From an uncultured bacterium (GTDB taxonomy: Bacteria > Bacillota_I > Bacilli_A > RFN20 > CAG-826): 64,000 bases of DNA. The DNA lies in assembly GCA_949299395.1 (NCBI GenBank), contig CASGAB010000001.1, positions 72,365 through 136,364 of the forward strand. The letters run 5' to 3'. Positions 3,470-55,174 of the stretch are shown one piece after another. Below the pieces are notes generated by a model. That model did no database searches and was not told the DNA's origin. It saw only the letters and a program-made list of their open reading frames with translations. Position numbers and translations under genes: made by a program. Numbering within the stretch: the stretch's first letter is position 1; every line of letters starts with the position of its first letter.

Positions 3470-3495
3470 ACTTCCTTTAATATATAATATTAAAG
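3470..3495 (+). promoter_or_regulatory. Palindrome overlapping promoter -10 and RBS of rlbA
   Basis: CCTTTAATAT, three nucleotides, then ATATTAAAGG form a perfect 10-bp inverted repeat. A TATAAT -10 hexamer (3483-3488) lies inside it and the AAAGGAG ribosome binding site forms its right arm. A T-run follows, so it could also terminate dnaN transcripts. Dual use is inference. Confidence 0.4.
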
Positions 3496-3505
3496 GAGTT
3501 TTTTT

Positions 3506-3733
3506 ATGAATAAACTAAATCGTGTTCAAATTAAAATAGAAACTGATTTTATTACATTAGGTCAATTCCTAAAATTCGCTGATATTATTGATAGCGGATT
3601 TTTAGCAAAACCTTTTTTAAGCGAACACACTATTATTGTTAATGGTGAAAACGAAAATAGAAGAGGTAAAAAATTACATGAAGGCGATTTAATTGATATT
3701 GATAACTCAATGTTCTTTGAAATTACAAAATGA
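3506..3733 (+). CDS. rlbA: S4-domain RNA-binding protein RlbA/YaaA
   Basis: Small 75-residue protein made almost entirely of an S4 RNA-binding domain. The pattern ITLGQFLKFADIIDSG followed by IIVNGENENRRGKKLHEGD is the S4 alpha-L fold with the typical basic RRGKKL turn. Homologues (YaaA in B. subtilis) sit between dnaN and recF and are thought to act in ribosome biology. A strong AAAGGAG precedes the start. Its TGA stop overlaps the recF ATG by four nucleotides (ATGA), which indicates translational coupling. Confidence 0.88.
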   Translation: MNKLNRVQIKIETDFITLGQFLKFADIIDSGFLAKPFLSEHTIIVNGENENRRGKKLHEGDLIDIDNSMFFEITK

Positions 3734-39461: not shown

Positions 39462-39500
39462 AACTTTCGAAAGTTTCGTTTGAAATCATAATTCGAAAGT
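39461..39500. promoter_or_regulatory. Candidate DeoR operator A (palindrome plus TTTCGTTT)
   Basis: A perfect 16-bp palindrome AAACTTTCGAAAGTTT (39461-39476) runs into TTTCGTTTGAAA (39474-39485), and ATTCGAAAGT follows at 39491-39500. The same TTTCG core recurs in three other gaps of the 39-54 kb island. It lies about 80-120 nt upstream of the ECF S component gene; the palindrome may alternatively act as a terminator of the EamA gene. Confidence 0.45.
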
Positions 39501-39578
39501 ATAACAAATTATTTTATTAAAGTATTTGCTTTAAGATAGCGCATTATAATATAAATTAATCAACGGAGATTTACTTTT

Positions 39579-40217
39579 ATGACGAAAAGAGCACTTATTA
39601 TTAGCAAAATTTCTTTAGCGGCAATGTTCTTAGCAATTTGTTGGCTAATTCCAAGTTTAACTGGTCGTGTACCTGAATTAGGAAGAGTATTCTTACTTAT
39701 GCACATTCCAGTAATGATTTGCGGCTTTGTTTTAGGCCCTGTTTATGGTGCATTTATTGGATTTGTAGCACCATTAACAAATACTTTATTTTTTGTAACT
39801 CCACCTATTACCTCTTCGGTTCCTATGGCTTTCGAATTAGCTGTTTACGGTTCTGTTGTCGGTTTTTTGTTTGCGATTTTTGTAAAGAAATTTAAAAAAC
39901 TTGATAGCATTATTTTTATTTATATTTCTTTAGTTATTGCGATGATCTTAGGTAGAGCTGTTGGTGGTATCGTAAGTTATATTTATAATGTTGCTTCTGG
40001 AAACGAATATACAGCAATTGCATATTGGACAGGTTATTTTGCTCAAGGATGGCCTGGAATGATTATTCAAATTGTACTTATTCCTTCAATTATTCGTTTA
40101 CTTTATGGACAAAATATTATTCAAAAATTCTTACCTGATTATAAATTCGTTTCTAAAGGTGAAGAAACAGTCAAAAAAGAAGAAAATAATCAAGTAAACA
40201 AGGTTGAAAATAATTAA
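39579..40217 (+). CDS. ECF transporter S component, substrate unknown
   Basis: Membrane substrate-binding subunit of an energy-coupling-factor (vitamin) importer, 212 residues with about six helices. The start MTKRALIISKISLAAMFLAICWLIP and the LLMHIPVMICGFVLGPVYGAFIGFVAPL segment are typical of S components that share the common EcfT/EcfA module; those genes are not in the window. A helix-proximal GRAVGGIVSYIYN and charged C-terminal tail follow. It is followed after 2 nt by a small kinase gene, which suggests import followed by phosphorylation of a nucleoside or vitamin. CGGAG ribosome binding site. Confidence 0.75.
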   Translation: MTKRALIISKISLAAMFLAICWLIPSLTGRVPELGRVFLLMHIPVMICGFVLGPVYGAFIGFVAPLTNTLFFVTPPITSSVPMAFELAVYGSVVGFLFAIFVKKFKKLDSIIFIYISLVIAMILGRAVGGIVSYIYNVASGNEYTAIAYWTGYFAQGWPGMIIQIVLIPSIIRLLYGQNIIQKFLPDYKFVSKGEETVKKEENNQVNKVENN

Positions 40218-40219
40218 TA

Positions 40220-40807
40220 ATGTTTAAATTTGATTTTATTAAAAATAAAATTGATGAATTATTAAAAGAAAAAGAATCTATTATTATTGCTATTGATGGT
40301 GATAGTTGTAGTGGTAAATCCACTCTAGCTTCTTTAATTAATGATTATTATAAAAATGAAGTAAATATTATTCATGTCGATGATTTTTATCTTAATAATA
40401 AAGGAAACATCGACATGAATAAGATAAACACTACTTTTGATGGTAATATTGATTATTTAAAATTAAATGAAGTTATAAATAATTTAGTTAAAAAAGATGA
40501 ATTTATTTATAAAACATTTAATTGTATGAACCAAAAGTATAGTGATGATATTCCTTTTAAAAAGAAGAAAATCAATATAGTTGAAGGAAGTTATTCACTT
40601 AATATCAATAAAATTGGTTATAAATATTATGATTTATCTTTATTTTTAAAAATAAGTGAAGAAGAACAAAAAGAAAGATTATTAAAAAGAAATCCATCTA
40701 AATATGAAATGTTTATTTCTAAGTGGGTGGTCTTAGAAAAGAACTATCAAAAACATTATAAAATCGAAGAAACTGCAGATTTTTTAATAAATGTAAGTGA
40801 GATATAG
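40220..40807 (+). CDS. Uridine-kinase-like P-loop kinase
   Basis: 195-residue kinase-like protein. Walker A IAIDGDSCSGKST lies near residues 22-34, IIHVDDFYLNN (catalytic Asp-Asp and Phe-Tyr) follows, then VEGSYSLN, and a LID-like KERLLKRNP. This arrangement matches the uridine kinase / phosphoribulokinase superfamily, which also includes pantothenate and nicotinamide riboside kinases. It begins two nucleotides after the ECF S-component stop with no ribosome binding site, so translation is coupled. The phosphate acceptor is probably the imported compound. Confidence 0.75.
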   Translation: MFKFDFIKNKIDELLKEKESIIIAIDGDSCSGKSTLASLINDYYKNEVNIIHVDDFYLNNKGNIDMNKINTTFDGNIDYLKLNEVINNLVKKDEFIYKTFNCMNQKYSDDIPFKKKKINIVEGSYSLNINKIGYKYYDLSLFLKISEEEQKERLLKRNPSKYEMFISKWVVLEKNYQKHYKIEETADFLINVSEI

Positions 40808-40880
40808 TTAGTTTTGTTTCGTTCGAAACTATTTTTAGATTATTCGAAAGACTTTCACAAGATCGCGAAAGTCTTTTATT
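40808..40880 (+). promoter_or_regulatory. Candidate DeoR operator B and terminator before the TIM-larA operon
   Basis: GTTTCGTTCGAAAC (40816-40829) is an inverted repeat with the TTTCG core. AAAGACTTTC (40847-40856) and GAAAGTCTTT (40867-40876) with a following T-run form a terminator for the ECF/kinase pair, itself built from the same CTTTCG-like word. Both precede the TIM-like gene. Confidence 0.5.
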
Positions 40881-40941: not shown

Positions 40942-41751
40942 ATGAAAAAAATCTATTTAAACTTAAAAAGATTCGATATTCCTAGAGAATTAGGAGGTAT
41001 CAATGACACAGCCTTAAACGAAAGTTATGGTAAAACAATCGTTAAAGGCATTGAAGAAATGAATTTAGACATACCAATTACTATTTATTTCCAAGAATCT
41101 AATTTATTTAGCGCTTTATCAGAAGCTAAAAAGATTCATATTGGATGTCAAAGCGTACACTATGGAGATGTTGCTCCAGGTGGGAATTTTGGTGCATTTA
41201 CAACTTCAAGAACCGCTCGATCAATGAAAGCAATTGGAGTTAACGATACATTAATCGGTCACTGTGAAGAAAGAAACCATTTAAATTATTTAACTTCTTT
41301 AAATGGCGGAACTTATGATATTAATTTAATTTTAAATAAAGAAGTTAAGTTAGCTACTGACTTGGGAATGAATGTTCTTTATTGCATTGGTGAAAAGAGT
41401 GAAGAACAAGATAGAAAATATGAAGTTTTAAAGAATCAACTTGAAGTTGGACTTAAAGACGTCGATTTAAGTAAAGTTACAATTGCATATGAACCTGTCT
41501 GGGCAATTGGACCTGGAAAAACTCCACCAGATAGAGAATATATTGAAGATATAGTTAAACATATTAAGAGTATTGTTCCTTGCGAAGTCGTTTATGGTGG
41601 AGGATTAAAACTCGAAAATGCAAAAATGTTAGCATCAATTCCTGAACTTGATGGTGGCTTAATTGCATTAACTAGGTTTGGACAAGATTTCGGATTCTAT
41701 CTCAAAGATTTTGAAGAAATCGTTAAAACATATAAGGAAGGGTTAAAGTAA
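40942..41751 (+). CDS. Triosephosphate isomerase paralogue
   Basis: 269-residue TIM-barrel protein. All four catalytic residues of triosephosphate isomerase are visible: Asn7 and Lys9 (LNLKRF), His107 (IGHCEER) and Glu184 (AYEPVWAIGPGKTPP). The phosphate-binding end differs: the usual GG of the VGGAS segment is replaced in LDGGLIALTRFG, and loop 6 has Pro for Thr. I therefore expect an isomerase for another ketose/aldose (phosphate), as with EryH of erythritol catabolism, rather than the housekeeping enzyme. It starts an operon with larA-like, nagB-like and ABC importer genes. Confidence 0.75.
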   Translation: MKKIYLNLKRFDIPRELGGINDTALNESYGKTIVKGIEEMNLDIPITIYFQESNLFSALSEAKKIHIGCQSVHYGDVAPGGNFGAFTTSRTARSMKAIGVNDTLIGHCEERNHLNYLTSLNGGTYDINLILNKEVKLATDLGMNVLYCIGEKSEEQDRKYEVLKNQLEVGLKDVDLSKVTIAYEPVWAIGPGKTPPDREYIEDIVKHIKSIVPCEVVYGGGLKLENAKMLASIPELDGGLIALTRFGQDFGFYLKDFEEIVKTYKEGLK

Positions 41752-41753
41752 GT

Positions 41754-43187
41754 ATGAAAGTAAAATTAGAATACGGCGATGGCCAAGTTGAAGTAGAAGT
41801 TCCTGAATCAAGTGATGTATTTGAAACAGGTGTTACTGTCAAAGACCCTAAAGGACTTGATGATGTTAAAGCAGCTACTTTAGAAGCATTAAGACATCCT
41901 TTAGATATGAAACCTATCAGTGAACTTGTTCACGAAGGAAGTAAAATTACTATCGTCTTCCCAGATAAAGTTAAAGGCGGATTCCAAGATGATTCTCATA
42001 GAAAAACATCTATCCCATTAATTATCGACGAATGTTTAAAAGCAGGCGCAAAAGAAGAAGATATTATGCTTATTTGTTCAAATGGTCTCCATAGAAAAAA
42101 TAAGCCAGAAGAAATTAGAAGAATATTAGGTGATGAACTCTTTGATAGATTCTATCCAAAAGGACAAATCATCAATCACGATAGTGAAGATCCAGAACAT
42201 ATTGTTGATCTTGGCTATGAACCAAAATTCCATGCAAAAGTTGTTATAAATAAGTACGTTTATGATAGCGATGTCACATTCTTAATTGGTCATACTCAAG
42301 GTAACCCATATGGTGGATATAGCGGCGGCTATAAACATTGTGCAACTGGTATCTCAAACTGGGAATCAATTTCTTCCCACCACTGTCCAGAAGTTATGCA
42401 TAGAGAAGACTTCGTTCCAGTTACTTCACATTCATTAATGAGACAAAAATTTGATGCTATTGGTGAATGGATGGAACACGGAATGGGTAGAAGCTTCTTC
42501 TGTGTCGATGCAGTATTAGATTCATTCTCACATCAAATCGCAGTTGTTGCTGGTGAAGCTCATGCAGTTGAAAAAGCAACACGGGAAATTGCAGATAAAA
42601 GAACTTACGTCCATTGGGCAAAGAAAAAATATGACGTTATTATTATGGGACTTCCAAATGATTTCCAATATGGAACACGTCAAGGAAGAAACCCAATCTT
42701 AATTGAACAAGCAATCGCTGCTCAAATCATTAGATTAAAGAGAGTTATGAGTGATAATCCCGTTATTATTGCTTTAGCTCAATGTGATGACTTCGGCGAT
42801 GAAGAATTCCCAGCAATGAAAGATGTCTTCGATTATTATGTTAATAATGGTAATACGCTTCCAGATATCGAACATTATTACGATAATATGGAAACTCAAA
42901 AATATATTGATGCTTACCGTTTCAATTATGCATTCCATCCATTCCACGCATTCTCAATGATCTCTTGTGCACATATTGCTGAAAGAGATTGTAAAGCTGT
43001 CTATATCGTTGGCGCTAAAAAACCAGGTTGGGCAAGAGAAATGGGCATGAAAACAAGAAATACAGTTATGGAAGCATATGAAGACGCTAAAAAATATGTT
43101 GGTGAAAATCCAAATGTCTTAGTCTTACCAATGACATTTAAACGTCCTTCAGTCCACTTATGTATGGAGGATGATAAAAATGAATAA
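41754..43187 (+). CDS. LarA-type nickel-dependent racemase/epimerase homologue
   Basis: 477-residue member of the lactate-racemase superfamily, whose members racemise or epimerise 2-hydroxy acids using the nickel-pincer (NPN) cofactor. The key residues of LarA (His108, His174, Lys184, His200) correspond to His113 (SNGLHRKN), His180 (LIGHTQGN), Lys194 (YSGGYKHC) and His210 (ISSHH). The DHTRP-type loop of true lactate racemase is absent, so another hydroxy acid, perhaps a sugar acid, is likely. No larB, larC or larE is in the window. It is two nucleotides after the TIM-like gene and overlaps the nagB-like gene. Confidence 0.8.
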   Translation: MKVKLEYGDGQVEVEVPESSDVFETGVTVKDPKGLDDVKAATLEALRHPLDMKPISELVHEGSKITIVFPDKVKGGFQDDSHRKTSIPLIIDECLKAGAKEEDIMLICSNGLHRKNKPEEIRRILGDELFDRFYPKGQIINHDSEDPEHIVDLGYEPKFHAKVVINKYVYDSDVTFLIGHTQGNPYGGYSGGYKHCATGISNWESISSHHCPEVMHREDFVPVTSHSLMRQKFDAIGEWMEHGMGRSFFCVDAVLDSFSHQIAVVAGEAHAVEKATREIADKRTYVHWAKKKYDVIIMGLPNDFQYGTRQGRNPILIEQAIAAQIIRLKRVMSDNPVIIALAQCDDFGDEEFPAMKDVFDYYVNNGNTLPDIEHYYDNMETQKYIDAYRFNYAFHPFHAFSMISCAHIAERDCKAVYIVGAKKPGWAREMGMKTRNTVMEAYEDAKKYVGENPNVLVLPMTFKRPSVHLCMEDDKNE

Positions 43188-43992
43188 AGATTTCTTAAAA
43201 ATTAAAGGAAATGATATCACAAAAGGTAGAATCCCAATTGATATCTATAAAGATAAAGAAACAACCTTTAAATCAATGGCTGATTTAATGGTTGATACTA
43301 TCTTAGAAAATAATAAATTGGGTAAAAAAACATTATTTATTGTTCCTTTAGGTCCTGTCGGACAATATAAATATTTCGTAGAAAGAGTTAATAAAGAAAG
43401 AATTTCTCTTAAAGATGTTACCTTTATTAACATGGATGAATATATGGATGATGAAACTCATTTAGTTTCATCATCAAATCCATTATCATTCAAAAAAATT
43501 ATGTATGAAATCTGTTATAACTTAATCGATAAAGACTTAATTATGGATGAATCACAAAGAATCTTCCCTAATTTAGAAAATATCGAAACAATTGATAAAG
43601 TTATAAAAGAACATGGCGGAGTTGATATTTGTTTCGGAGGTATTGGAATTACTGGTCATATCGCATTTAATGACCCACCTGAAAAAGGTGTTAGTGAAGA
43701 AGAATTTAAAAATCTTGGCACTAGAGTAGTAAGAATTACTGAAGCAACAAGAGTTGTTAACTCCATGGATGATTTTGATGGTGCATATTATCTTATGCCA
43801 GAATATGCAATTACCATTGGCTTTAAAGAAATATTATCTGCTAAAAAAATTAGATTGTATTGCTTTAGAAATTGGCATAGATCAGTCGTTAGAAGAGCTA
43901 GTTTCTTAGATAAAACTGTTTCTTATCCTGTAACATTACTTCAAGATCATGATGATACAAGGATTGGAATCAGTGAAGAATTAGCAGATTAA
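43180..43992 (+). CDS. NagB-fold protein (glucosamine-6-phosphate deaminase-like) with altered active site
   Basis: 271-residue protein related to glucosamine-6-phosphate deaminase. NMDEYM (Asp86) and GIGITGHIAFNDPP match NagB, but the residue equivalent to Asp141 is Thr158 and that to Glu148 is Asp165. The phosphate loop GLATGSTP is replaced by VPLGPVGQY. His160 is kept. It is therefore probably not a normal deaminase and may isomerise another sugar or sugar acid. The ATG at 43180 has GGAGG at proper spacing and overlaps the larA-like stop; the ATG at 43171 is too near the GGAGG. Confidence 0.75.
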   Translation: MNKDFLKIKGNDITKGRIPIDIYKDKETTFKSMADLMVDTILENNKLGKKTLFIVPLGPVGQYKYFVERVNKERISLKDVTFINMDEYMDDETHLVSSSNPLSFKKIMYEICYNLIDKDLIMDESQRIFPNLENIETIDKVIKEHGGVDICFGGIGITGHIAFNDPPEKGVSEEEFKNLGTRVVRITEATRVVNSMDDFDGAYYLMPEYAITIGFKEILSAKKIRLYCFRNWHRSVVRRASFLDKTVSYPVTLLQDHDDTRIGISEELAD

Positions 43993-44010
43993 TTAAAAGG
44001 AGTAGTTGTT

Positions 44011-44997
44011 ATGGCAGACGAAGAAAGAAAGGAAGTCACTAACGAAGAAGAAAAAAAGGAAAAGGTTAAAAAAGAACCTAAACCTAAAGGTTATTATAAA
44101 GATAAATTAACCCCTTCATTCGCTAAAGAAAATAGAGCTAAAAAAGAAGCTGCAATTGCCGCTATTGACTTAGCTACTTTATCAAAACCAGTCAATGATG
44201 TTGCTACATCAGGTCCTAAAAAGATGAAAGACTTCTCTTTATGGGCAAGATGGAAAACATTCCTTGTTGGTTTCGTTGGTGTTGTATGTATCATCGGTAT
44301 CTGGTGGTTATATGCAATTATTCGTGAAGCAGGCGGGCAAACTAGCTGGTTATCATCACCAGACTTAGTATGGCAAGCATTTGTTCAAACTGTCTCTAAT
44401 GGTATTTTGTGGAAACACTTATCATACTCATTACAACGTATTCTCATTGGATATTTACTTGCTCTTGTATCTTCCATTCCGGTTGCGTTTATTATGGCAT
44501 GGTATAAACCATTTAGAGCATTCTTAGATCCATTCATTCAATTCATGAGATGTATCCCACCAATCGCTTATGTTCCAATCGTTGTTGCAGCATTTGGTCC
44601 AGGTGAAGAATCTAAATATTTCATTATTTGGTTAGCTGTCTTCTTAACAATGACGGTTACAATCTATCAAGGTGTTAGAAACGTTGACTTAACATTAGTT
44701 AAAGCTGCTTATACCTTCGGCGCTAGAGATAGAAACTTATTCTTAGGTGTTATCGTTCCTAGTGCATTCCCATTTATCTTGACAGCTATGAGACTTGGTG
44801 TTGGTGCTGCTATGACAACATTAGTCGCAGCAGAATTAACTGGTGCTACATACGGTCTTGGTTCATACATTAATACCATGGGTTCCAACCTTGCTATGAA
44901 CTATGCAGTTATGGGTATTCTCGTTCTTGGTTTCTTTGGAATCTTATTCGATAAAGTCTTATTAGTTATCGAAAAGAGACTTACAAGATGGAAATAG
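44011..44997 (+). CDS. ABC transporter permease, SsuC/TauC family
   Basis: Inner-membrane permease of the nitrate/sulfonate/taurine (NitT/TauT) class, 328 residues. About six membrane segments follow residue 85; the EAA-type loop KAAYTFGARDRNLFLGVIVP contacts the ATPase. FMRCIPPIAYVPIVVAAFGPGEESK is the typical family stretch. The first about 80 residues form a long Lys/Glu-rich cytoplasmic extension not usual for SsuC. It lies between the nagB-like and ATPase genes in the same operon, with AAAGGAG upstream. Confidence 0.88.
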   Translation: MADEERKEVTNEEEKKEKVKKEPKPKGYYKDKLTPSFAKENRAKKEAAIAAIDLATLSKPVNDVATSGPKKMKDFSLWARWKTFLVGFVGVVCIIGIWWLYAIIREAGGQTSWLSSPDLVWQAFVQTVSNGILWKHLSYSLQRILIGYLLALVSSIPVAFIMAWYKPFRAFLDPFIQFMRCIPPIAYVPIVVAAFGPGEESKYFIIWLAVFLTMTVTIYQGVRNVDLTLVKAAYTFGARDRNLFLGVIVPSAFPFILTAMRLGVGAAMTTLVAAELTGATYGLGSYINTMGSNLAMNYAVMGILVLGFFGILFDKVLLVIEKRLTRWK

Positions 44998-45009
44998 AGG
45001 TAAAAAAGT

Positions 45010-45909
45010 ATGGAAAATAATAACGAAGTAGTCATTAAGATAGATAATGTTAGAAAGGTTTATCCAGTTGAAAACGGCGATGATGTTATCGCTTTAAACG
45101 GAGTTAACCTTGAAATCAAAAAGAATGAATTTATTTGTGTTGTTGGTCCTTCTGGATGTGGTAAAACTACATTATTAAATATCATTGCTGGTCTTGAACA
45201 ACCAACAAGTGGAAGTGCAACAATTCATAGAAGACCTATTTTAGGACCTGGTCCTGATAGAGGTGTTATCTTCCAACAATACGCTTTATTCCCATGGTTA
45301 ACAGTTAAAAAGAACGTCATGTATTCAACAAAATTTATTAAACATGAAGTTCCTGTTATGAAAAAGAATAAAGAAACAGGTGAAATGGAACAAGTTTACG
45401 AAACTGATGAAAACGGTAATACAGTTCCAGTCATGAAAAAAGTTAAATATTCAAAACTTGAAAGAGAAGCTATTGCAAGAAAATATATTGAAATGGTTCA
45501 ACTTAATGGTTTTGAAAATAAATATCCAAAAGAATTATCAGGTGGTATGAAACAAAGAGTTGCTATCGCTAGAGGATATGCACTTAATTCAGAAGTTTTA
45601 TTACTTGATGAACCATTTGGTGCTCTTGATGCTCAAACAAGATCTCAATTACAAGAAGACTTGTTAAAAACTTGGGAAAAAGAAAGAAAAACATGTTTCT
45701 TCATTACCCACGACGTTGATGAATGTGTCTTACTTGCTTCTAGAGTTATCATTATGAGCGCAAGACCTGGTCAAGTTAAGGAAGTCATTGATATTGATTT
45801 ACCTTACCCAAGAAGTCAAGCTACTAAATTAGACCCAAAATTCCAAGAATATCGTAATCACATTTGGGATGTTGTCTATAAGATGTATCTTAGTAGCGCA
45901 AGACATTAA
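45010..45909 (+). CDS. ABC transporter ATPase, SsuB/TauB family, with insertion
   Basis: Energises the SsuC-type permease. Walker A GPSGCGKT (46-53), Q-loop [11 protein letters not shown] (86-96), signature LSGGMKQ (176-182), Walker [12 protein letters not shown] and the switch histidine in FFITHDVDE are all intact. Between Q-loop and signature there is an insertion of about 35 residues (about 112-148) flanked by the repeated hexapeptide VPVMKK at 114-119 and 139-144. Length is 299 against about 255 normally. The insertion would sit in the helical subdomain facing the permease. Confidence 0.9.
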
Positions 45910-45974
45910 TTTTGCTAAAGCAATTTATTAAAATTGTAAAAATATTTAATTTAAGGAATTATAAGGAGATTAAA

Positions 45975-47105
45975 ATGAAAAAAATTAAATTATTATCTTT
46001 AGTTACAGTTGCAGTTTTAGGTGCATCAGCACTTGTTGCTTGTGGTCCTCAAGGCGGTGAAGAAGAATTAACAACTGTTAGAATCGGATTACACGAAAAC
46101 TTTGGTGCCGGTGCTGGTTATAGTGCAATCAACCAAGGTTTCTTTGAAGAAGAAGGCATTAAAGCTGAACCAATACTAGGTGGAGGACCTCAATTAGCTG
46201 CTTCAGTCGTTGAAGGTACAATCGACGTTTCATTCATGGGTAATGGTGTCGCTTGGAACTATTTCGGTGAAAACGAAGAAATCAAACTTATCGCTTTAGA
46301 TAACTTAACAGACGACGATAGATTAATCGCTAGTAAAGCAGGTAAAGGTAAAGATTTAACAATCAATTCAACTTTAACTGAAATCGCTACAGCATTAAAA
46401 GGTTCAAAACTTGCATTCGATGCTACAAAAACTCCAGCTGCATTTTGGTCAAGCTTAGTCGCAGCTATGAATGGTGAATTAGTCGAAGGTCAAAAAGTCT
46501 GGTATGAAGGCCAAAACGGTGAAAAATTACCTACAGGTTTAACGGATGCTGATTATGTTGCTGCTAACCAAGTTACAGTTATCAACACATCAGATGCTAA
46601 CCTTACAACTTCAATGCAAAGTGGTGAATACGATTTCTGTATTTCATTTTCACCTGTTGCTACAACTCTTGAAAAAGATACAGAACATTTCACTGTTGTT
46701 GCCAAAACATCAACACATTTAGAAGCTGATTCATATACTCCATCAACATGGGCAGTCAATGCTAAATGGTTAGCTAGCAATGAAGAAACATTCAAAAAAT
46801 TCATGAGAGGTTTAGTTAAAGGTATGAACTTCAGAAATGCTAACCCAGAAGAATGTACAAAAGACGTTGAAGCAGTTAGTGCTGGTAAAGTCTTAGCTTC
46901 ATCATTAGATACAACAATTGCTCAATGGTTAAATGCTGAACAACAACTTGAAATCATCAACAATGGTGATGCATTAAAATATGTTGAAAATATTAGAAAT
47001 TCACAATTAGCTGGTGATAACGCTGGTAAAGTTTCTGATAAAGTTACAGCTGAAAAAGCAGCAGACTTCTCATACTTAAAAGAAGCTTGTGAAGCTTTAA
47101 AATAG
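45975..47105 (+). CDS. Substrate-binding lipoprotein, SsuA/TauA (NMT1)-like
   Basis: Extracellular receptor of the importer, 376 residues. Signal peptide MKKIKLLSLVTVAVLGASAL with lipobox LVAC, so it is lipid-anchored at Cys24. TVRIGLHENFGAGAGYSAINQG and FFEEEGIKAEPILGGGPQLAASVVEGTIDVSFMGNG follow the NMT1/SsuA pattern; this class binds small anions such as sulfonates, nitrate, taurine or aromatic acids and thiamine precursors. The ATG at 45975 has AAGGAG; the longer frame from 45912 is not needed. It closes the operon before a terminator. Confidence 0.9.
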   Translation: MKKIKLLSLVTVAVLGASALVACGPQGGEEELTTVRIGLHENFGAGAGYSAINQGFFEEEGIKAEPILGGGPQLAASVVEGTIDVSFMGNGVAWNYFGENEEIKLIALDNLTDDDRLIASKAGKGKDLTINSTLTEIATALKGSKLAFDATKTPAAFWSSLVAAMNGELVEGQKVWYEGQNGEKLPTGLTDADYVAANQVTVINTSDANLTTSMQSGEYDFCISFSPVATTLEKDTEHFTVVAKTSTHLEADSYTPSTWAVNAKWLASNEETFKKFMRGLVKGMNFRNANPEECTKDVEAVSAGKVLASSLDTTIAQWLNAEQQLEIINNGDALKYVENIRNSQLAGDNAGKVSDKVTAEKAADFSYLKEACEALK

Positions 47106-47134: not shown

Positions 47135-47161
47135 TAAGGAAGGCAAAACGCCTTCCTTTTA
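47135..47161 (+). terminator. Terminator of the TIM-larA-ABC operon
   Basis: AAGGAAGGC, loop, GCCTTCCTTTT. A palindrome TTAGTTAAATTAACTAA lies directly before it (47105-47121). Confidence 0.88.
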
Positions 47162-47760: not shown

Positions 47761-48636
47761 TTAACTAATTAATGGAGTACCCGCTAAATTTAAAGCACTA
47801 ACAACAATAATATAAATATTAATTAAAATAATTGCGACTGTTGTAGCCATATAAACAATTGCTACACCTTTATTAGTCATCTTTTTATTTAAATATGTTC
47901 CAATTAAAGAACCAATAATTGAAATAGGTACTAAAATAACTAAGAAGATCCACCAAATACTATCTGGATTAGTATTTAAATTATCTAAATTAGTACTTAA
48001 ATTAGAGAATATAGTTACAAATGTTCCATCAAATGCAGCCATTACAAGTTTAGAAAGTTGAGAGAAGATAATTGTAATTAAAGATGATATTGCAGCTTGT
48101 TTCATATCCATTCCAAAGAAAAGAAGTAAAACAGCAACATTAATTGGACCACCACCAATTCCTAAAAATGTTGAACAAACACCTAAAAATAAACCAATTA
48201 TTATAGTAATAATAAAGTTTTTAACGTGTAATACTTTACCTTTTGGTAAAAAGATTTGTTGATAAATAATAACAAATAATAAAAGTGCAATTAATATACC
48301 TGATTGAATAATTTTTAAAACATCAGCATTAGAAGAAGCTTTAACAAAAGAGAATAAGAATTGACCTAAGATTCCTCCAATTACTGCTCCAATACCTAAG
48401 AATACTGCTGTTTTCCAATTTTCAATTTTAGTTTTACTTGTGATATGTCTAATAATTGAAGTAGAGGTTCCAAAAACAACACAGAAAGTAGAAATCATAT
48501 TAGTTATTTCAACAGCGTTGAAATAACCAAAAGCATCTAAAACTGGACGGATAATAACTCCTCCTCCAATTCCAGCAATTGCTCCTACAATACTAGCAAT
48601 AATTACAACTAGTGGGAAAATAAATAAATAAATCAT
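47761..48636 (-). CDS. TauE/SafE (TSUP) family sulfite/sulfonate exporter-like membrane protein
   Basis: 291-residue membrane protein with about eight helices in two repeats. The glycine-rich GAIAGIGGGVIIRPVLDAFG near the N-terminus and TFLGIGGGPINVAVLLLFF in the second half are the TSUP signature pair. Members export sulfite, sulfoacetate or related anions, or take up others. It is divergent from the deoR regulator, and the gap holds the best operator palindrome, so it is likely in the same regulon. Its presence next to an SsuABC-type importer hints at sulfur-containing substrates, without proof. Confidence 0.85.
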   Translation of the reverse strand: MIYLFIFPLVVIIASIVGAIAGIGGGVIIRPVLDAFGYFNAVEITNMISTFCVVFGTSTSIIRHITSKTKIENWKTAVFLGIGAVIGGILGQFLFSFVKASSNADVLKIIQSGILIALLLFVIIYQQIFLPKGKVLHVKNFIITIIIGLFLGVCSTFLGIGGGPINVAVLLLFFGMDMKQAAISSLITIIFSQLSKLVMAAFDGTFVTIFSNLSTNLDNLNTNPDSIWWIFLVILVPISIIGSLIGTYLNKKMTNKGVAIVYMATTVAIILINIYIIVVSALNLAGTPLIS

Positions 48637-48805: not shown

Positions 48806-49558
48806 ATGAAAATTAATAAAAGACAAAGTGAAATAGTCGAAATTGTCGATAATAAAAAGAGTGTTACTGTTACTGAATTAAGTAATATTTTAAATGTTAG
48901 TGAAGTTACTATTAGAAAAGATTTAGATCTTTTAAGTGACTATGGAATTTTAATTAGAAGACATGGTTATGCCCTTAAAAAGAATAGTGCTGATATCACT
49001 AACCGACTTTCTATTAATTATGAGAAAAAATGTAAAATTGCTAAAAAAGCAGCTTCTTTAATTGATGTAAATGAAACTATTTTAATTGGAAGCGGCTCAA
49101 CCTGTGCTCTTTTAGCTGAAGAAATTGTTAAAAGTAAACCTGGAGTAACAATTATTACTCATTCAATTTATATTGCTGAACATGCTTCTAAATTAGGAAA
49201 TAATAAAATTATTCTTTTAGGTGGAGAATATCAAAATGATGCTCAAGTTTTAGTTGGTCCACTTGTTAGAAGTAGTGTAAGACAATTCTTTGTTGATAAG
49301 ATTTTTATTGGAACTGATGGATTTTTAAAAAATGTTGGCTTTATGGGAAGTGATTTTTCGCGTAGTGAAGCTATTAAAAATATGGCTGAATCAGCAAAAA
49401 ATATAATTATTGTTACTGATTCATCTAAATTTAATAAAAGAGGACTGTTAGTACAATTTACTCAGTCCCAAATTAGTCGAATTGTTACCGATAGTGATTT
49501 AGAAGAAGATTATAAAGAATTCTTTAAAAACTACGGTATTCAAGTTGATTATGTATAA
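48806..49558 (+). CDS. DeoR-family sugar-phosphate-responsive repressor
   Basis: 250-residue transcription regulator. The N-terminal winged helix reads KSVTVTELSNILNVSEVTIRKDLDLLSDYGILIRRHGYA, which is the DeoR signature (R.g.v.. l...lgvS..TiRrDl..L...g.l.r.hGga). The C-terminal DeoRC domain contains ILIGSGSTCALLAEEI and DKIFIGTDGF, the sugar-phosphate-binding isomerase-like fold. The effector is likely an intermediate made by the neighbouring enzymes. It lies immediately downstream of the operator palindrome at 48734-48767. Confidence 0.92.
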   Translation: MKINKRQSEIVEIVDNKKSVTVTELSNILNVSEVTIRKDLDLLSDYGILIRRHGYALKKNSADITNRLSINYEKKCKIAKKAASLIDVNETILIGSGSTCALLAEEIVKSKPGVTIITHSIYIAEHASKLGNNKIILLGGEYQNDAQVLVGPLVRSSVRQFFVDKIFIGTDGFLKNVGFMGSDFSRSEAIKNMAESAKNIIIVTDSSKFNKRGLLVQFTQSQISRIVTDSDLEEDYKEFFKNYGIQVDYV

Positions 49559-49574
49559 AAATTAATTAATTTAA

Positions 49575-50426
49575 TTAATTTATACGAGTAAAAGTGAAGG
49601 AATAATTAAATTCCTTTTCTTTTTTAACAACATTTATATATTTAATATCTGAAATATGATGTAAGTCGTTAGTATAATTTGAAATTCCCCACCAAGGTTC
49701 AACGCAAACAAAGTTTCCTTTATTTGGGTTTGACCAAACTGCTAAAAATAAAGCGTTAGTAAAATCATAAGTTACGTTATAACCAAAACCATTATCTAAA
49801 GTGATTTTTTTATAATTATTTTTCATAACGATGGTGTCATATTCTTTAAATAAGTCTTTTGTTAAGACTAATTCATTAGTTTGAAGATCTAAAAATTGAT
49901 TTAAATCGATTAAACCATTCTCTTTTATTAAAGGATTAATAACTAAATCACTATCAAAAGTAAGTTTTGAGACATTTTCTTTAGCTTTAAGGCCGGTATG
50001 AGAACCATATGCGAAATAAATTTCTTGTTCATCGTTATCACTAACTACTTTAGTATTAACTTTTAAAGTATAGTTTTCTAATGAATAAGTAATATAAATT
50101 GAAAAATGGAAAGGATATTCATCAAAAGATTCTCTATTTGAATGGAATCCTAATGTAATTAAATCTTCCTTTTTATCAATTATTTCAAAATCGCTATTTC
50201 TTAAAAAACCATGTCTAGCTTTTAAATAATAATCTCTATTTTCAAATTTAAATTCGCCTTTTCCAATTAAAGGGAAGATTTGAACATCTTTAAAAGGCCA
50301 AGAACCTTCTTCAACTTCATATAAAAGATTAAAATTATCATTTTTTAGGTCCAATATTTCTTCTAATAAAGCGCCTTTTAAATTGATTGCAACACTTAAA
50401 TTTTCATTTTTAATTATTTCATTCAT
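49575..50426 (-). CDS. Aldose 1-epimerase family protein (LacX-like)
   Basis: 283-residue mutarotase-like beta-sandwich protein. KARHGFLRNSDFE supplies the active-site histidine segment, AYGSHTGLKA corresponds to the GgHPaF motif with Pro replaced by Thr, and NFVCVEPWWGISNY carries the conserved glutamate. This matches the LacX branch associated with sugar operons, which may act on sugar phosphates or on anomers of imported sugars. It faces the nagA gene divergently. AGAGAG is before the start. Confidence 0.8.
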   Translation of the reverse strand: MNEIIKNENLSVAINLKGALLEEILDLKNDNFNLLYEVEEGSWPFKDVQIFPLIGKGEFKFENRDYYLKARHGFLRNSDFEIIDKKEDLITLGFHSNRESFDEYPFHFSIYITYSLENYTLKVNTKVVSDNDEQEIYFAYGSHTGLKAKENVSKLTFDSDLVINPLIKENGLIDLNQFLDLQTNELVLTKDLFKEYDTIVMKNNYKKITLDNGFGYNVTYDFTNALFLAVWSNPNKGNFVCVEPWWGISNYTNDLHHISDIKYINVVKKEKEFNYSFTFTRIN

Positions 50427-50534: not shown

Positions 50535-51656
50535 ATGAAAAATTTCAAAAATATATTAGTCGTAAAAGAGGATAAAATTGAAAAAAGTGATGTTATTTTT
50601 AATGATTCTTTTATATCTACAACTAAGAATAATGAAGAAGGTATTGATTATTCAAATAAAATCATGATTCCAGGTTTTTTTGATGTTCATACTCATGGTG
50701 CCGACGGACTTGATTTTTCAACTGTAAAAAGCGTTGAAGAAATTGAAAAAATCTTATCTTTTTATAGTAAAAAAGGTGTTACAAGTGTTTTCCCAACTCT
50801 TTTAACAGAACATAATGAAGTAGTTTTTAATCAACTTGAATTAATATATGAAGCTAGTAAAACCAACCCAATTATTAAAGGAATTCATGTTGAAGGACCT
50901 TTCCTTTCTTTAGAATATAAGGGTGCTCAACTTGAAGAATGTATTCAAGTTCCAAATAAGGAATTAGTTGATAAATATATCGAACATTCTCATGGTTTAT
51001 TTAAATATATGACAATTGCTCCTGAAAGAGAAAATGCTTGTGAAATTATTAAATATTTAGTTTCAAAAGGTATTACAGTTTCAATGGGTCACTCTAGTGC
51101 AACATTTGATGAAACAAAAGCTGCTTATGAAGCTGGAGCTAGAAACATTACTCACTGTTTAAATGCAATGAAAGGAATTCATCAACATTTCCCTTCAATT
51201 GCAACCGCTGCTTTATATATTGATGATTTATATAATGAAGTAATTTTAGATGGAATCCATGTTCATCCAGAAATGGTCGAATGGATTAGAAAATTAAAAG
51301 GAAATGATAAAGTTGTTGGAGTTACTGATTCACTTATGTGTGCTGGACTTCCAGATGGTGAATATATGATTGGAAATTCTCCAATTATTGTTAAAGATAG
51401 TGATGCTAAACTTAAAGATAGCGGAGTTAGAGCAGGAAGCTGCTTAACTATGGATAAAGCATTTAGAAATATTAAAAAGTTTAGTAATCTTGACGATATC
51501 GATGCTACAAAAATTACTTCTTTAAATGCAGCAAGATTAACTCATTTAGATGATAAAATTGGTTCAATTAAAGAAGGTAAAAATGCCGATTTTATAGTTT
51601 TAAATAAAAATTATGAAATTGAAGAAGTATATATCAATGGAAAGAAGGTTTGTTAA
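50535..51656 (+). CDS. nagA: N-acetylglucosamine-6-phosphate deacetylase
   Basis: Amidohydrolase removing acetate from GlcNAc-6-P, giving glucosamine-6-P. The metal and catalytic motifs are present: IPGFFDVHTHG, IHVEGPFL (metal glutamate), SMGHSSATFDE and ITHCLNAM histidines, and GVTDSLMCAGLPDG with the catalytic aspartate. 373 residues is normal. The typical next step, NagB, would be the altered homologue at 43.2 kb or an enzyme elsewhere. AAGGA ribosome binding site and a TATAAT promoter about 40 nt upstream. The phosphofructokinase gene starts two bases after its stop. Confidence 0.92.
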   Translation: MKNFKNILVVKEDKIEKSDVIFNDSFISTTKNNEEGIDYSNKIMIPGFFDVHTHGADGLDFSTVKSVEEIEKILSFYSKKGVTSVFPTLLTEHNEVVFNQLELIYEASKTNPIIKGIHVEGPFLSLEYKGAQLEECIQVPNKELVDKYIEHSHGLFKYMTIAPERENACEIIKYLVSKGITVSMGHSSATFDETKAAYEAGARNITHCLNAMKGIHQHFPSIATAALYIDDLYNEVILDGIHVHPEMVEWIRKLKGNDKVVGVTDSLMCAGLPDGEYMIGNSPIIVKDSDAKLKDSGVRAGSCLTMDKAFRNIKKFSNLDDIDATKITSLNAARLTHLDDKIGSIKEGKNADFIVLNKNYEIEEVYINGKKVC

Positions 51657-51658
51657 TT

Positions 51659-52828
51659 ATGGAAAAGAATTTAATTATTGCTCATGGTGGTGCTCCTACC
51701 GCAGTTATTAATGCTTCTCTTTATGGGGCATTAAAAAAATTAAAAAAAGAAGGCTTTAAAGGAAGAGTTTATGCTCCAAAATACGGTAGTGATGGACTTT
51801 TTAATGAAGAATTCAATGATTTAACAGATCTCACAGATGAAGAATTAGAAATTTTAAAAGACACTCCTGGAAGTGCGATTGGTTCATCTCGTTTCCCTTT
51901 ATATGAAAAAGAATATGAGAAAATTATCGATATTTTAATTAAATATAATATCGGCTATGTTCTTTTTACTGGAGGAAATGGAACAATGGATACAATTGGA
52001 AATATCTATAAATATGGTTTAAAAAGAGGAGTTGAACTTACTTGTGTAGGTATTCCTAAAACTATTGATAATGATATCGGTGTTACAGACCATGCACCTG
52101 GATTTGCTTCTTGTGCTAATTACATTGCTCAAACGGTTAGTGATTGTGCTCAAGATGTTAAAGGTCTTCCAATTCATGTTTCAGTTATTGAAGTTATGGG
52201 AAGAAATGCTGGGTGGCTTGCTGCAAGTAGTGCTTTAGCTAGAAAGAAAAAGGGTGATGCACCACATTTAATTTATTTCCCAGAAGTTCCTTTTGATGAA
52301 GATGAATTTATTGAAGATGTTAAAAAAGAACGGGAAAAACATCATGGAGTTGTTGTTGTTTGTAGTGAAGGATTAAAAGATAAAAACGGAAATCCAATTG
52401 TTAAGCCTATTTTTAAAACTGAAAGAGCAACTTACTTCGGAGATGTTTCAACTCATTTAGCAACACTTGTTATTGAAAAACTTGGTATTAAAGCAAGAAG
52501 TGAAAAACCTGGGTTAATTTGTAGATGCTCATCTTCTTTAGTTTCAAAAGTTGATAAAGAAGAAGCAATTTTAATGGGAGAAGTTGCAATTGATGCAGCT
52601 TTAAAACATATTAATGGAGTTATGGCTGGTATTAAAAGAGTTTCTACTAAACCATATAAAATTGAACCTATTTTAATTCCTATTGAACAAGTTATGATGG
52701 ATGAAAGAGTTTTCCCTCTTGAATATATTAAAGATAAGCACGATGTTAGCGATGAATTTATTGAATGGTGTAAACCATTAGTTGATGAAGTCAATCCTGT
52801 TATTACTTTCTTAGATAAAGATAAATAG
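51659..52828 (+). CDS. 6-phosphofructokinase-like protein, PPi- or ATP-dependence unclear
   Basis: 389-residue phosphofructokinase of the PfkA superfamily. The substrate loop PKTIDNDIGVTDHAPGFAS has Lys where ATP-type enzymes have Gly (PGT), as in pyrophosphate-dependent enzymes. The donor loop, however, is GGNGTMDT: Gly is kept where PPi enzymes have Asp (GGDDS), and the usual Mg-binding Asp before it is Asn. The Gly/Lys pairing occurs in plant and trypanosomal ATP-dependent enzymes, so the phosphate donor is open. ATG 51659 is chosen over TTG 51650. Coupled to nagA, ending in a strong terminator. Confidence 0.85.
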   Translation: MEKNLIIAHGGAPTAVINASLYGALKKLKKEGFKGRVYAPKYGSDGLFNEEFNDLTDLTDEELEILKDTPGSAIGSSRFPLYEKEYEKIIDILIKYNIGYVLFTGGNGTMDTIGNIYKYGLKRGVELTCVGIPKTIDNDIGVTDHAPGFASCANYIAQTVSDCAQDVKGLPIHVSVIEVMGRNAGWLAASSALARKKKGDAPHLIYFPEVPFDEDEFIEDVKKEREKHHGVVVVCSEGLKDKNGNPIVKPIFKTERATYFGDVSTHLATLVIEKLGIKARSEKPGLICRCSSSLVSKVDKEEAILMGEVAIDAALKHINGVMAGIKRVSTKPYKIEPILIPIEQVMMDERVFPLEYIKDKHDVSDEFIEWCKPLVDEVNPVITFLDKDK

Positions 52829-52919: not shown

Positions 52920-54017
52920 TTATTTAATATAAGGAGCATCTCCAACAGAACCGAATTCAACATTTGCTGTTAAAACGATTTCTTTAACTGCTTTTTCCAT
53001 TAATGGAACGATTGCTTTAAGTTCATCATTGAAGTTTTTATTTGTTTCAAGTTCGTTAATATATTCTTTTAAATAATATCTATATTCAAATGAATCTGGT
53101 TTTTCTTTTAAAAGTTTATAAACCTTACTTCCTTCTTGTCTTGATTTATCTGCTTCATAATATTCAAGTAAATTTCTTGTTGTAGCAAGTCTAATATCAG
53201 TATCCATATTGATTTTTGAAACGCCACTAGGAATAACTTCTTTTAATTGTTCAAGAGGAATGCCATGTCCTTTAACTTGACCACCTAAAGCATTGATTTC
53301 ATCGACAATATATTGAGGTACTAAACTTGAACCGTGGCTAACGATAGTTCCTTCAATATTATTATGTTGCATATTTTCCATAGTTGCGATAACGATTTCT
53401 TTTCTTAATTGGACATTATCACCTTTAACAGCACCGTGTTTTGTACCATAAGAAATAGCTAAACTATCACAACCGGTTCTTTTAAAGAAATCGATTGCAG
53501 TTAATGGGTTAGTATAAGTCGAACTAGCAGCGAAAACATGATCTTCAACACCAGCTAAAACACCTAATTCACCTTCAACTTGGACACCTCTTTTATGAGC
53601 ATAATTAACAACTTTTTTAGTTAATTTAACATTTTCTTCATAATCTAATGCTGATCCATCAATCATAACGCTATTAAATCCTGCATCGATAACTAATTTA
53701 CATGATTCAAAACTTCTACCATGGTCTAAATGTAATGAAACAGGAATTGATGATTTTTCTGCTAAAGCTTTAACGTATTTTGCAATTCTTTTAGCACCTA
53801 ATTTTTTATCTTCCATTGTTCCATTTAAAAAATCTGCTCTTCCACCAATAAATGCTAAACCTGGTTCAGCAACTTGTATGATTGCAGCACAACGTAATTC
53901 TTCACAAGCTTCGATTATTGCTTTTGCTTGACATAATGCATTGACATTAAATGCTCCATGAGCAATTTTATGATCTCTTGCATAAGTTAAAATTTGTTTT
54001 GATGATATATATGGCAT
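52920..54017 (-). CDS. fba: Class II fructose-bisphosphate aldolase
   Basis: Zinc aldolase splitting fructose-1,6-bisphosphate, or a related ketose phosphate, into two trioses. SLHLDHGRSFESC holds the catalytic Asp and zinc His, VEGELGVLAGVEDHV the next metal glutamate, SYGTKHGAVKG and TIVSHGSSLVP the other zinc histidines, and INMDTDIRLATTRNL the phosphate loop. 365 residues is the longer class II form. The start is the ATG at 54017 with AAGGAG; ten further upstream codons are possible but lack a ribosome binding site. It is divergent from the ROK kinase across operator-like repeats. Confidence 0.9.
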   Translation of the reverse strand: MPYISSKQILTYARDHKIAHGAFNVNALCQAKAIIEACEELRCAAIIQVAEPGLAFIGGRADFLNGTMEDKKLGAKRIAKYVKALAEKSSIPVSLHLDHGRSFESCKLVIDAGFNSVMIDGSALDYEENVKLTKKVVNYAHKRGVQVEGELGVLAGVEDHVFAASSTYTNPLTAIDFFKRTGCDSLAISYGTKHGAVKGDNVQLRKEIVIATMENMQHNNIEGTIVSHGSSLVPQYIVDEINALGGQVKGHGIPLEQLKEVIPSGVSKINMDTDIRLATTRNLLEYYEADKSRQEGSKVYKLLKEKPDSFEYRYYLKEYINELETNKNFNDELKAIVPLMEKAVKEIVLTANVEFGSVGDAPYIK

Positions 54018-54041
54018 TTTTATATCTCCTTTTTTTAATTC

Positions 54042-54156
54042 TTTCATATTCGTTTCGTTATTGCTATTAAAAAACTTCGAATATTATCGCTTTTTTATGT
54101 GTTTTCTTTCGTATAAAAGTTTAAAACATTTTATTTGAAAAACGAAACGAAAGTTT
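54042..54156. promoter_or_regulatory. Candidate DeoR operators D in the fba-ROK divergent gap
   Basis: ATTCGTTTCGTTATTGC (54048-54064) close to the fba start and AAACGAAACGAAAG (about 54139-54152) on the ROK side are inverted copies of the TTTCGTTT word. CTTCGAATATTATCG and CTTTCGTATAAAAG lie between them. The arrangement suits joint control of the two divergent genes by one repressor. Confidence 0.55.
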
Positions 54157-54223: not shown

Positions 54224-55174
54224 ATGGGAAAAGTATATATTGGCGTTGATGTTGGTGGAATGTCTATTAAAGCAGGTGTAGTTAATATTAATGGTGAAAT
54301 TTTATTTAAAAAAAGCTGTGTTACTGACGGGCAAAACGTTGATCAATTTTTAAAAGATACTAAAACTTTATTAGAAGAAGTTGTTAATGAAGCAAAAGAA
54401 AAAGATTTAGACCCTCAAGGAATTGGCTTTGGAATTCCTGGAATGGTTGATAATAACTTAGGAATTATCAATAAAATGGCTAATATTGGTGGAAGAGATG
54501 TTCCTTTAAAATATTATTTAAAAGATTTAAATCTTCCAATTTATTTATCAAATGATGCTAATGTTGCTGCTTTAGCTGAACAAAAATTTGGTGTTGCTAA
54601 AGGTATGAAACATGTCATTTTACTTACTTTAGGAACAGGAGTAGGTGGCGGAGTTATTGTTAATAATCAACTTTATGAAGGCAATCAAGGAAAAGGCGCA
54701 GAACTTGGCCATACTTGTTTAATTTTAAATGGAAGACAATGTGGATGTGGAAGAAAAGGTTGTTTAGAAACTTATGCATCAGCTAGTGCTCTATTAAGAT
54801 TAACTCGCGAATATATGGAAAAATATAAAGATTCAATGATGTGGGAATATTGCAACAACGATATTAATAATGTTAGTGGTCTTACTTCATTTGAATGTGC
54901 TAAAAAAGGTGATGAAGCTGCTAATAAACTTATCGATGAATACATTATGTATTTAGGAGAAGGTTTACTTGATTTTGCTAATATTTTCCGTCCAGAAGCA
55001 TTTGTTATTGGAGGAGGAATCTCTAATCAAGGTGAATATTTGACTAATAAGTTAGAAGAATATTTAAGAAAACAAAATTATGGTTATGAAGGCGCTCCTG
55101 AAAGTAAAGTTTTAATCGCTAAACTTAAAAATGATGCTGGAATTATTGGAGCAGCTTCCTTATTGATGGAATAG
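54224..55174 (+). CDS. ROK-family sugar kinase (glucokinase-like)
   Basis: Phosphorylates a hexose such as glucose or N-acetylmannosamine at C6. The N-terminal IGVDVGGMSIKAGVV is the ATP-binding phosphate-1 loop, LSNDANVAALAE has the catalytic Asp, LTLGTGVGGGVI follows, and the zinc site HTCLILNGRQCGCGRKGCLE is complete. 316 residues is normal, and there is no HTH so it is a kinase rather than a repressor. The divergent gap to fba is full of operator-like words. Exact sugar cannot be read from sequence. Confidence 0.92.
   Translation: MGKVYIGVDVGGMSIKAGVVNINGEILFKKSCVTDGQNVDQFLKDTKTLLEEVVNEAKEKDLDPQGIGFGIPGMVDNNLGIINKMANIGGRDVPLKYYLKDLNLPIYLSNDANVAALAEQKFGVAKGMKHVILLTLGTGVGGGVIVNNQLYEGNQGKGAELGHTCLILNGRQCGCGRKGCLETYASASALLRLTREYMEKYKDSMMWEYCNNDINNVSGLTSFECAKKGDEAANKLIDEYIMYLGEGLLDFANIFRPEAFVIGGGISNQGEYLTNKLEEYLRKQNYGYEGAPESKVLIAKLKNDAGIIGAASLLME

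Follow-up and report, generated by a model that had tools for sequence, protein, structure and literature searches.

Directly upstream of a TIM-LarA-NagB-importer operon, an uncultured gut bacterium carries a pair of genes, here called S and K, that travels with LarA in its genus. This association is newly observed. We propose that S-K probably imports and re-phosphorylates the nickel-pincer nucleotide (NPN), most plausibly as its riboside, and so replaces LarBCE. To our knowledge, every described user of NPN synthesizes the cofactor for itself via LarB, LarE, and LarC, and we know of no documentation of free NPN outside cells. Salvage of NPN appears to be undescribed; a search of open-licence papers yielded nothing on it or on DUF3842.

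The window analyzed here is the whole 64,000-nucleotide stretch of DNA. Six same-strand open reading frames were verified on its + strand (40942-47105), in agreement with the operon described in the earlier note: a TIM paralogue (40942..41751), LarA (41754..43187), a NagB-like isomerase/deaminase (43171..43992), a TauC/SsuC-like ABC importer permease (44011..44997), an importer ATPase (45010..45909), and an NMT1/SsuA-like binding lipoprotein (45975..47105). They are spaced by 2, -17, 18, 12, and 65 nt, the last value assuming that the binding protein starts at ATG 45975 with a lipoprotein signal, and are followed by a symmetrical, bidirectional terminator-like hairpin (47136..47158). The TIM paralogue matches PF00121 (113 bits) and, on alignment to the PDB TIMs 7rpn and 7rgc, retains the catalytic Lys, His, and Glu (NLKRF, GHCEE, AYEPVWAIG). 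Its phosphate-binding loop departs from the canonical form and reads GGLIALTR, and it scores below the true-TIM equivalog (TIGR00419, 70 vs 130.6 bits). Likewise, the NagB-like protein is below its curated cut-off (TIGR00502, 94 vs 237 bits); alignment to PDB 5hj5 indicates that the Asp of NMDEY and the His are retained, with Thr in place of NagB Asp141. The importer proteins belong to the expected families (BPD_transp_1, ABC_tran, and NMT1, with PF09084 at 48 bits for the binding protein). The SsuABC label previously given to them is nevertheless loose, as the best matches are TauC, NtrCD/SaoA, and SsuA, and the curated equivalog cut-offs for SsuA/TauA, SsuC/TauC, and SsuB/TauB are reached in no case.

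LarA falls in the single-histidine, carbohydrate-linked subfamily published in 2025 (PMC12611868). It matches Lar_N (PF09861) at 126 bits against a cut-off of 23.3 and is 54-56% identical to LarA_Sp of Streptococcus plurextorum (PDB 9q2u, 9q3k) and LarA_Bw of Blautia wexlerae (9q3j), which have the same single-histidine/asparagine site and NPN residues. Residues D71, K74, H113, N184, K194, H210, Y306, H398, and R428 match those of LarA_Sp in the alignment, while His306 of LarA_Sp is replaced by Gln305. H113 and N184 align with H115 and N185 of LarA_Sp, leaving a single catalytic histidine with Asn in place of the second; ordinary two-base 2-hydroxyacid epimerization is therefore not to be assumed. 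The residues for the NPN thioamide bond (K194), nickel (H210), and the dimer (R428) are all present, and Lys194 and His210 are invariant among the aligned LarA sequences. In LarA_Sp, the equivalents of these two residues are responsible for the thioamide bond to NPN and for holding the nickel (PMC12611868). On this sequence basis, LarA is presumed to be an NPN enzyme. The 316.5-Da ligand of LarA_Sp could not be assigned to a pathway intermediate by mass.

The gene set is conserved in relatives, one of the checks proposed beforehand. The order TIM-LarA-NagB-importer recurs in all 17 genus loci examined, save where the contig ends, and TIM directly adjoins LarA in nearly all of 63 further loci; the grouping is therefore not due to chance. 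Across these roughly 80 related loci, TIM-LarA is usually accompanied by phosphofructokinase, aldolase, NagA, NagB, and a Tau/Ssu-type importer, a set also contained in the window between 36 and 55 kb. The earlier reading had stopped short of the genes downstream, which extend to 55174: a TauE/SafE-type exporter (47761..48636, - strand; PF01925, 119 bits), a DeoR-type regulator (48806..49558, +; PF00455, PF08220), an aldose 1-epimerase-like protein (49575..50426, -; PF01263), a NagA-type deacetylase (50535..51656, +; TIGR00221, 285 bits, over cut-off), a phosphofructokinase of the PPi-dependent subfamily (51650..52828, +; NF010675, 396 bits, over cut-off), a class II aldolase (52920..54047, -; PF01116; TIGR00167, 222 bits, over cut-off), and a ROK-family sugar kinase (54224..55174, +; PF00480). 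The earlier note knew of no described pathway with this set. TIM, GlcN6P isomerase, aldolase, and FBPase have already been reported beside LarA_Bw, with a role in carbohydrate metabolism proposed (PMC12611868), and the gene set is thus known; TIM and GlcN6P-isomerase-type neighbours are common to the LarA_Bw and LarA_Sp loci and this one. The operon is best explained as encoding the sugar pathway to which single-histidine LarA proteins belong, a reading that would provide this orphan subfamily with a full genomic pathway. The initial interpretation is partly supported, as the conserved neighbourhood is in keeping with catabolism of an anionic, sugar-like compound that is imported.

At least two of the three genes for making NPN appear to be missing. 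No larC (PF01969) was found in the bacterium's own genome (97% complete) or in any of 26 genus genomes, in a search whose control recovered larC in 6 of 14 known genomes. For LarE, the best TIGR00268 scores were 18 bits in the own genome and 42 in the genus (range 18-42) against a cut-off of 150, compared with 297 bits for the LarE in the S. plurextorum operon. The earlier note had held that absence of larBCE would count against its pathway, and larC is indeed absent and larE unsupported. However, the NPN-binding residues are intact, which argues for an imported cofactor rather than for no pathway. The genus appears not to make NPN. S. plurextorum, in contrast, has LarE inside the operon as well as larC, where the genus has S-K instead. 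In Lactiplantibacillus plantarum, LarB-LarE-LarC supplies LarA with the same cofactor by de novo synthesis from NaAD; the operon slot of those genes is taken here by S or S-K, for which uptake and phosphorylation are proposed.

The S-K pair (39579-40807) lies directly upstream of the operon and was not noted in the first reading. S (39579..40217, +) is an ECF transporter substrate-binding component (PF12822, 52.2 bits vs cut-off 30.7). Its sequence is not close to that of any solved S component, and its AF2 model matches the RibU, ThiT, and FolT folds with a probability of 1.0 but a best E of 3e-3. K (40220..40807, +) begins 2 nt past the end of S and shows PRK-uridine kinase similarity in NCBIfam and Pfam profiles. 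The top Foldseek matches of its AF2 model (pLDDT 92) are uridine-cytidine kinase 2 (E 2e-11). K has the Walker A motif and the fold (at a TM of about 0.7) of the uridine-cytidine kinase/phosphoribulokinase family, but is only 15-21% identical to its members and scores below the uridine kinase equivalog (TIGR00235, 47 vs 220 bits). Some genomes encode K as a fusion, either with S or with a new domain at its N terminus. The alignment shows no or almost no variation in the Walker A, DD, EG, and arginine positions: the P-loop S31-G32-K33, D54-D55 with the catalytic Asp, and the LID Arg R157 are invariant, and R153 is nearly so. Distant nucleoside-kinase relatives accept many substrates. The modelled folds fit import followed by ribonucleoside phosphorylation. 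ECF vitamin importers with a salvage kinase have the same S-component fold and likewise couple uptake to phosphorylation; unlike theirs, the substrate proposed for S is an organonickel nucleoside. A 10-bp hairpin with a T-rich tail (40847..40876, +) separates K from TIM, and S-K is probably a separate transcript from the TIM operon. A TTCGAAAG motif upstream of both S and TIM was considered as a shared operator and rejected as unconvincing (6 matches vs 3 expected), and an Rfam scan of the cluster revealed no riboswitch.

S and K co-occur with LarA across the genus. K is present in 17 of 18 LarA-containing genomes, adjoining TIM-LarA in 16, and in one of eight without LarA. The exceptions include a genome with LarA that lacks both larC and K and in which S is matched only weakly (G019), and another with S-K but no LarA (G007). 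The isolate Lachnospiraceae bacterium 28-4, which has no larC, carries S-K together with LarA on a single contig (L065/L179). In other loci, S-K occurs as a single fused 377-aa ORF after aldolase-TIM-LarA-TauE (L227), in the order LarA-TauE-S-K (L216), and together with the ECF A-A'-T proteins in a larC-lacking spirochaete (L178). S also forms an operon with a bona fide LarA-LarD (L205) and adjoins LarC or its N-terminal part at three loci (L172, L173, L225), while several loci have S without K or with the N-terminal extension of K only. On the S tree, the S proteins linked to LarA or LarC are spread over several distinct branches.

In a first panel, S was absent from 11 of 20 larC-lacking LarA-containing genomes, seven of them spirochaetes. 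The contrast was not significant across all 20 larC-lacking genomes (p=0.11) and reached p=0.01 on removal of the spirochaetes, a post hoc cut. A second sample of 299 Lachnospiraceae was therefore taken. LarC is present in 9/53 of its S-containing genomes vs 176/246 of those without S (odds ratio 0.08, p=2e-13). This exclusion holds among LarA-containing genomes (S in 11/16 without LarC vs 3/52 with LarC, p=8e-7) and among those without LarA (33/98 vs 6/133, p=5e-9); these p-values were computed without species-tree correction and overstate independence because the genomes are related. Genomes with S are no smaller than the LarC-containing genomes compared, and some genomes carry both. On the LarA tree, the state with S and without larC requires at least 6 changes. 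A strictly LarA-specific role for S-K was ruled out, as presence of S and LarA is not associated over all Lachnospiraceae (p=0.47); 39 of the 53 S-containing genomes lack LarA, and a non-LarA NPN user or another substrate has to be supposed in them.

These patterns suggest a vitamin-like uptake of NPN from neighbours. LarA would require NPN obtained from outside the cell, and S would bind the cofactor, most likely as the dephosphorylated nickel-loaded riboside, for entry with the ECF ATPase/T module. K would then restore the 5'-phosphate through its uridine-kinase fold, after which LarA would bind the nucleotide via Lys194 and His210. The S-K unit may likewise stand in for LarC, and presumably also for LarB and LarE, in other bacteria, many of them from the gut. 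It counts against uptake that the NPN of LarA is covalently bound and labile. There is perhaps an even chance that NPN is more broadly a shared, vitamin-like cofactor of gut communities, with S-K a dedicated ECF import and phosphorylation system that has arisen or been transferred repeatedly and also serves undiscovered NPN enzymes other than LarA. Such enzymes have been inferred from genomes with larBCE only (PMC11796402). If salvage is correct, NPN would join the cofactors exchanged among microbes, genomes with LarA but no larC would be explained, LarA enzymes could be loaded without LarBCE, and S-K in genomes without LarA would be a possible marker for finding non-LarA NPN enzymes.

It is rather unlikely that S-K instead salvages a different nucleoside-like vitamin, such as a pyridine riboside destined for NAD or a nucleoside of the queuosine type, with the LarA link due to hitch-hiking and the LarC exclusion to lineage. 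Such a role would suit the many genomes with S but no LarA and the resemblance of K to general uridine kinases, and precedents exist for ECF S components paired with kinases. However, S is linked to genes for LarA, LarC, or LarD at several distinct places in its tree, the exclusion of LarC is strong both with and without LarA, and none of the Rfam vitamin riboswitches was found at the S loci searched. The physical linkage to TIM-LarA-NagB in the genus and the distant relationship of K to phosphoribulokinase could also place S-K within the sugar pathway, S importing a second substrate and K phosphorylating a sugar intermediate for NagB, phosphofructokinase, and TIM. We consider this improbable: pathway operons of larC-containing genomes generally lack S-K near LarA yet keep TIM, phosphofructokinase, NagB, aldolase, and the importer, and S also accompanies canonical LarA-LarD and LarC where such sugar genes are absent. 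That the genome has dispensed with the cofactor, using LarA in an apo or differently loaded form with S-K unrelated, seems very improbable; LarA_Bw was colourless and apo when purified after co-expression with NPN-making enzymes, but the close relative LarA_Sp was NPN-loaded (PMC12611868), and the invariance of Lys194 and His210 also speaks against it.

As to the sugar itself, the best explanation of the operon is compatible with a sugar, perhaps an amino sugar, that carries a sulfonate in imitation of a 6-phosphate, although we regard this only as a tentative and not very likely identification. The compound would pass through NagA, NagB, phosphofructokinase, aldolase, and TIM-like enzymes, and TauE/SafE would export either a C3 sulfonate or sulfite. 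No sulfolactaldehyde dehydrogenase, sulfolyase, or other sulfonate enzyme was identified nearby, the ABC proteins are under the Tau and Ssu cut-offs, members of the TauE/SafE and NMT1 families also act on other compounds, and a ROK kinase is likewise present. Pointing towards a sulfonate are the changes in the phosphate loop of TIM and in the active site of NagB, together with the Tau/Ssu-type importer and TauE/SafE found beside LarA both in the genus and at about 16 of the 63 other loci.

The six ORFs of the operon at 40942-47105 have the strand and spacing described in the earlier note, and the terminator placed at its end is present as a symmetrical hairpin. The operon is a portion of a longer locus, with extra genes on both sides, in a 1.24 Mb genome (97% complete). 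Upstream lie two genes, S-K (39579-40807), encoding an ECF transporter substrate-binding component (S; 39579-40217) and a uridine-cytidine-kinase-fold kinase (K; 40220-40807); downstream are TauE/SafE, DeoR, aldose epimerase, NagA, phosphofructokinase (PFK), class II aldolase and ROK kinase. The hairpin separating K from TIM points to a transcript of its own for S-K. The stretch 39464-40850 carries TTCGAAAG at three sites upstream of S, at one inside that gene and at one in the K-TIM gap; this motif is possibly a regulator site, but its occurrence is only weakly above chance.

The nickel-pincer nucleotide (NPN), the LarA cofactor, may be salvaged by S-K, and this candidate system is a more interesting finding than the TIM-LarA-NagB trio. 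The window LarA shares 54-56% identity with the LarA proteins of Blautia wexlerae and Streptococcus plurextorum, of the single-histidine subfamily described in PMC12611868, which reports no lactate racemisation by the latter. All residues named for NPN binding in the S. plurextorum protein are retained (D71, K74, K194, H210). The lone catalytic His113, Tyr306 and His398 are likewise conserved, whereas His306 of that protein is replaced by Gln; Asn184 stands where the second histidine would be. When the genome was checked for larC and larE, as the earlier note proposed, larC was found neither there nor in any genome of the genus CAG-826 (0/26), and LarE matches in the genus were far below cut-off. 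LarA is present in 18 of the 26 species of this genus and, among 144 relatives searched, in no other genus (three sub-cut-off matches apart), which suggests that LarA probably arrived along with its cofactor supply. Of the 18 LarA-containing genus genomes, 17 have K, and in 16 it adjoins TIM-LarA; among the eight lacking LarA, it occurs in G007 only, plus one marginal match in G009.

The model of S has an ECF S component fold, closest to RibU, ThiT and FolT (E only 3e-3), and that of K a uridine-cytidine kinase fold (E 2e-11). Since NPN is a mononucleotide, the natural reading is that it would be taken up as the riboside and then 5'-phosphorylated, as are other nucleotide vitamins. With larC absent, the molecule taken in would be expected to be already nickel-loaded. 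Substrate, riboside form and nickel loading are inferred.

Across genomes, S tends to occur where LarC is absent. Of 62 LarA-containing genomes from other genera, 42 have larC; strong S matches occurred in 9/20 larC-lacking versus 6/30 larC-containing genomes searched (p=0.11), or 8/12 versus 6/29 with spirochaetes left out (p=0.01), these and all following p-values being Fisher tests on related genomes that overstate independence. The state of S without larC requires seven changes on the LarA tree built for this panel, at least six of these forced by well-supported branches. S, LarA and LarC were also searched together in 299 genomes of one family (Lachnospiraceae, per the label of centre locus L067), a sample that overlaps the first panel in G146 and a few other genomes. 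LarC was present in 9/53 genomes with S versus 176/246 without (p=2e-13). S occurred in 11/16 LarC-lacking versus 3/52 LarC-containing genomes with LarA (p=8e-7), and in 33/98 versus 6/133 without LarA (p=5e-9). Genome size did not differ between S-containing genomes and the first 75 LarC-containing genomes listed. Eight spirochaete loci (L069, L074, L075, L082, L097, L105, L110, L121) have single-histidine LarA in genomes lacking larC, with S-K in L069 only; another cofactor source may operate there.

Gene context links S to LarA or LarC repeatedly, and the S sequences concerned are spread over several distinct regions of the S tree. The order is aldolase-TIM-LarA-TauE-S-K in L216; in L227, aldolase, TIM, LarA, an importer-binding-type protein and TauE directly precede S and K fused in one 377-aa protein. 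In lactobacilli, larBCE accompany larA and larD, whereas in L205 a true LarA (627 bits, cut-off 460) and a true LarD lactate channel occur with S. Full LarC adjoins S in L225. In L172 the row is DUF1893-S-LarC N-terminal part; in L173 that part lies one gene from S, followed by canonical LarA. LarC copies comprising only the N-terminal part were seen in G165, G155, G173 and G180, with full LarC elsewhere in three of the four genomes. DUF3842 (PF12953), for which a search of open-licence literature turned up no paper, is a candidate further NPN gene, repeatedly adjoining S, K and LarC (L182:5303-5728, L178:7944-8393, L067:5382-5813, L173:7948-8460); in L178, a larC-lacking spirochaete, DUF3842, two ECF ATPases, T, S and K form one row. 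DUF1893/TM1506 also repeatedly adjoins S (L173:6957-7409, L172:6356-6781, L236, L239, L240, L241). Clostridia K proteins carry an N-terminal domain of ~170 aa without a Pfam match (L067:3532-4584), which is free-standing after S in L182 (4046-4552) and L183 (5090-5611).

It is possible that S-K handles another vitamin, as most S-containing Lachnospiraceae have no LarA, but we rank this below NPN salvage. LarC is far commoner than LarA in that family (185 genomes, 62%, versus 68, 23%), so it must rely mostly on undescribed NPN users, and non-LarA NPN proteins have been inferred from larBCE-only genomes (PMC11796402); S without LarA is thus expected under NPN salvage also. That K serves as a kinase of the sugar pathway ranks lower too, given that larC-containing operons of the same pathway are generally without S-K.

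The earlier note's view of the operon as a catabolic route for an imported anionic sugar or hydroxy acid was right in part and known in part. The trio it proposed to search for recurs among the best 80 of 526 LarA loci of relatives in a GTDB genome scan, where neighbours include TIM (71), PFK (55), NagB, NagA and class II aldolase (47 each), an ABC importer (46, counted by ATPase), LacI (34), aldose epimerase (29), TauE/SafE (27, counting the larger of two clusters) and GPI (15). The note knew of no described pathway with this set, but PMC12611868 notes both the subfamily and the B. wexlerae neighbours (TIM, GlcN6P isomerase, aldolase, FBPase), which makes the trio a conserved, previously noticed but unsolved pathway. 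The TIM paralogue retains the catalytic Lys, His and Glu but has an altered phosphate loop, GGLIALTR, and the NagB-like protein lacks NagB Asp141; together with the Tau/Ssu-type importer and TauE/SafE, these sequence features hint at a sugar bearing an anion other than phosphate. This may be a sulfonated amino sugar, processed through NagA, NagB, PFK, aldolase and TIM, but with a low probability because a dedicated sulfonate enzyme was not seen. In the L227 LarA operon, an NMT1-type binding protein is fused to a chemoreceptor-like domain (3485-5416).
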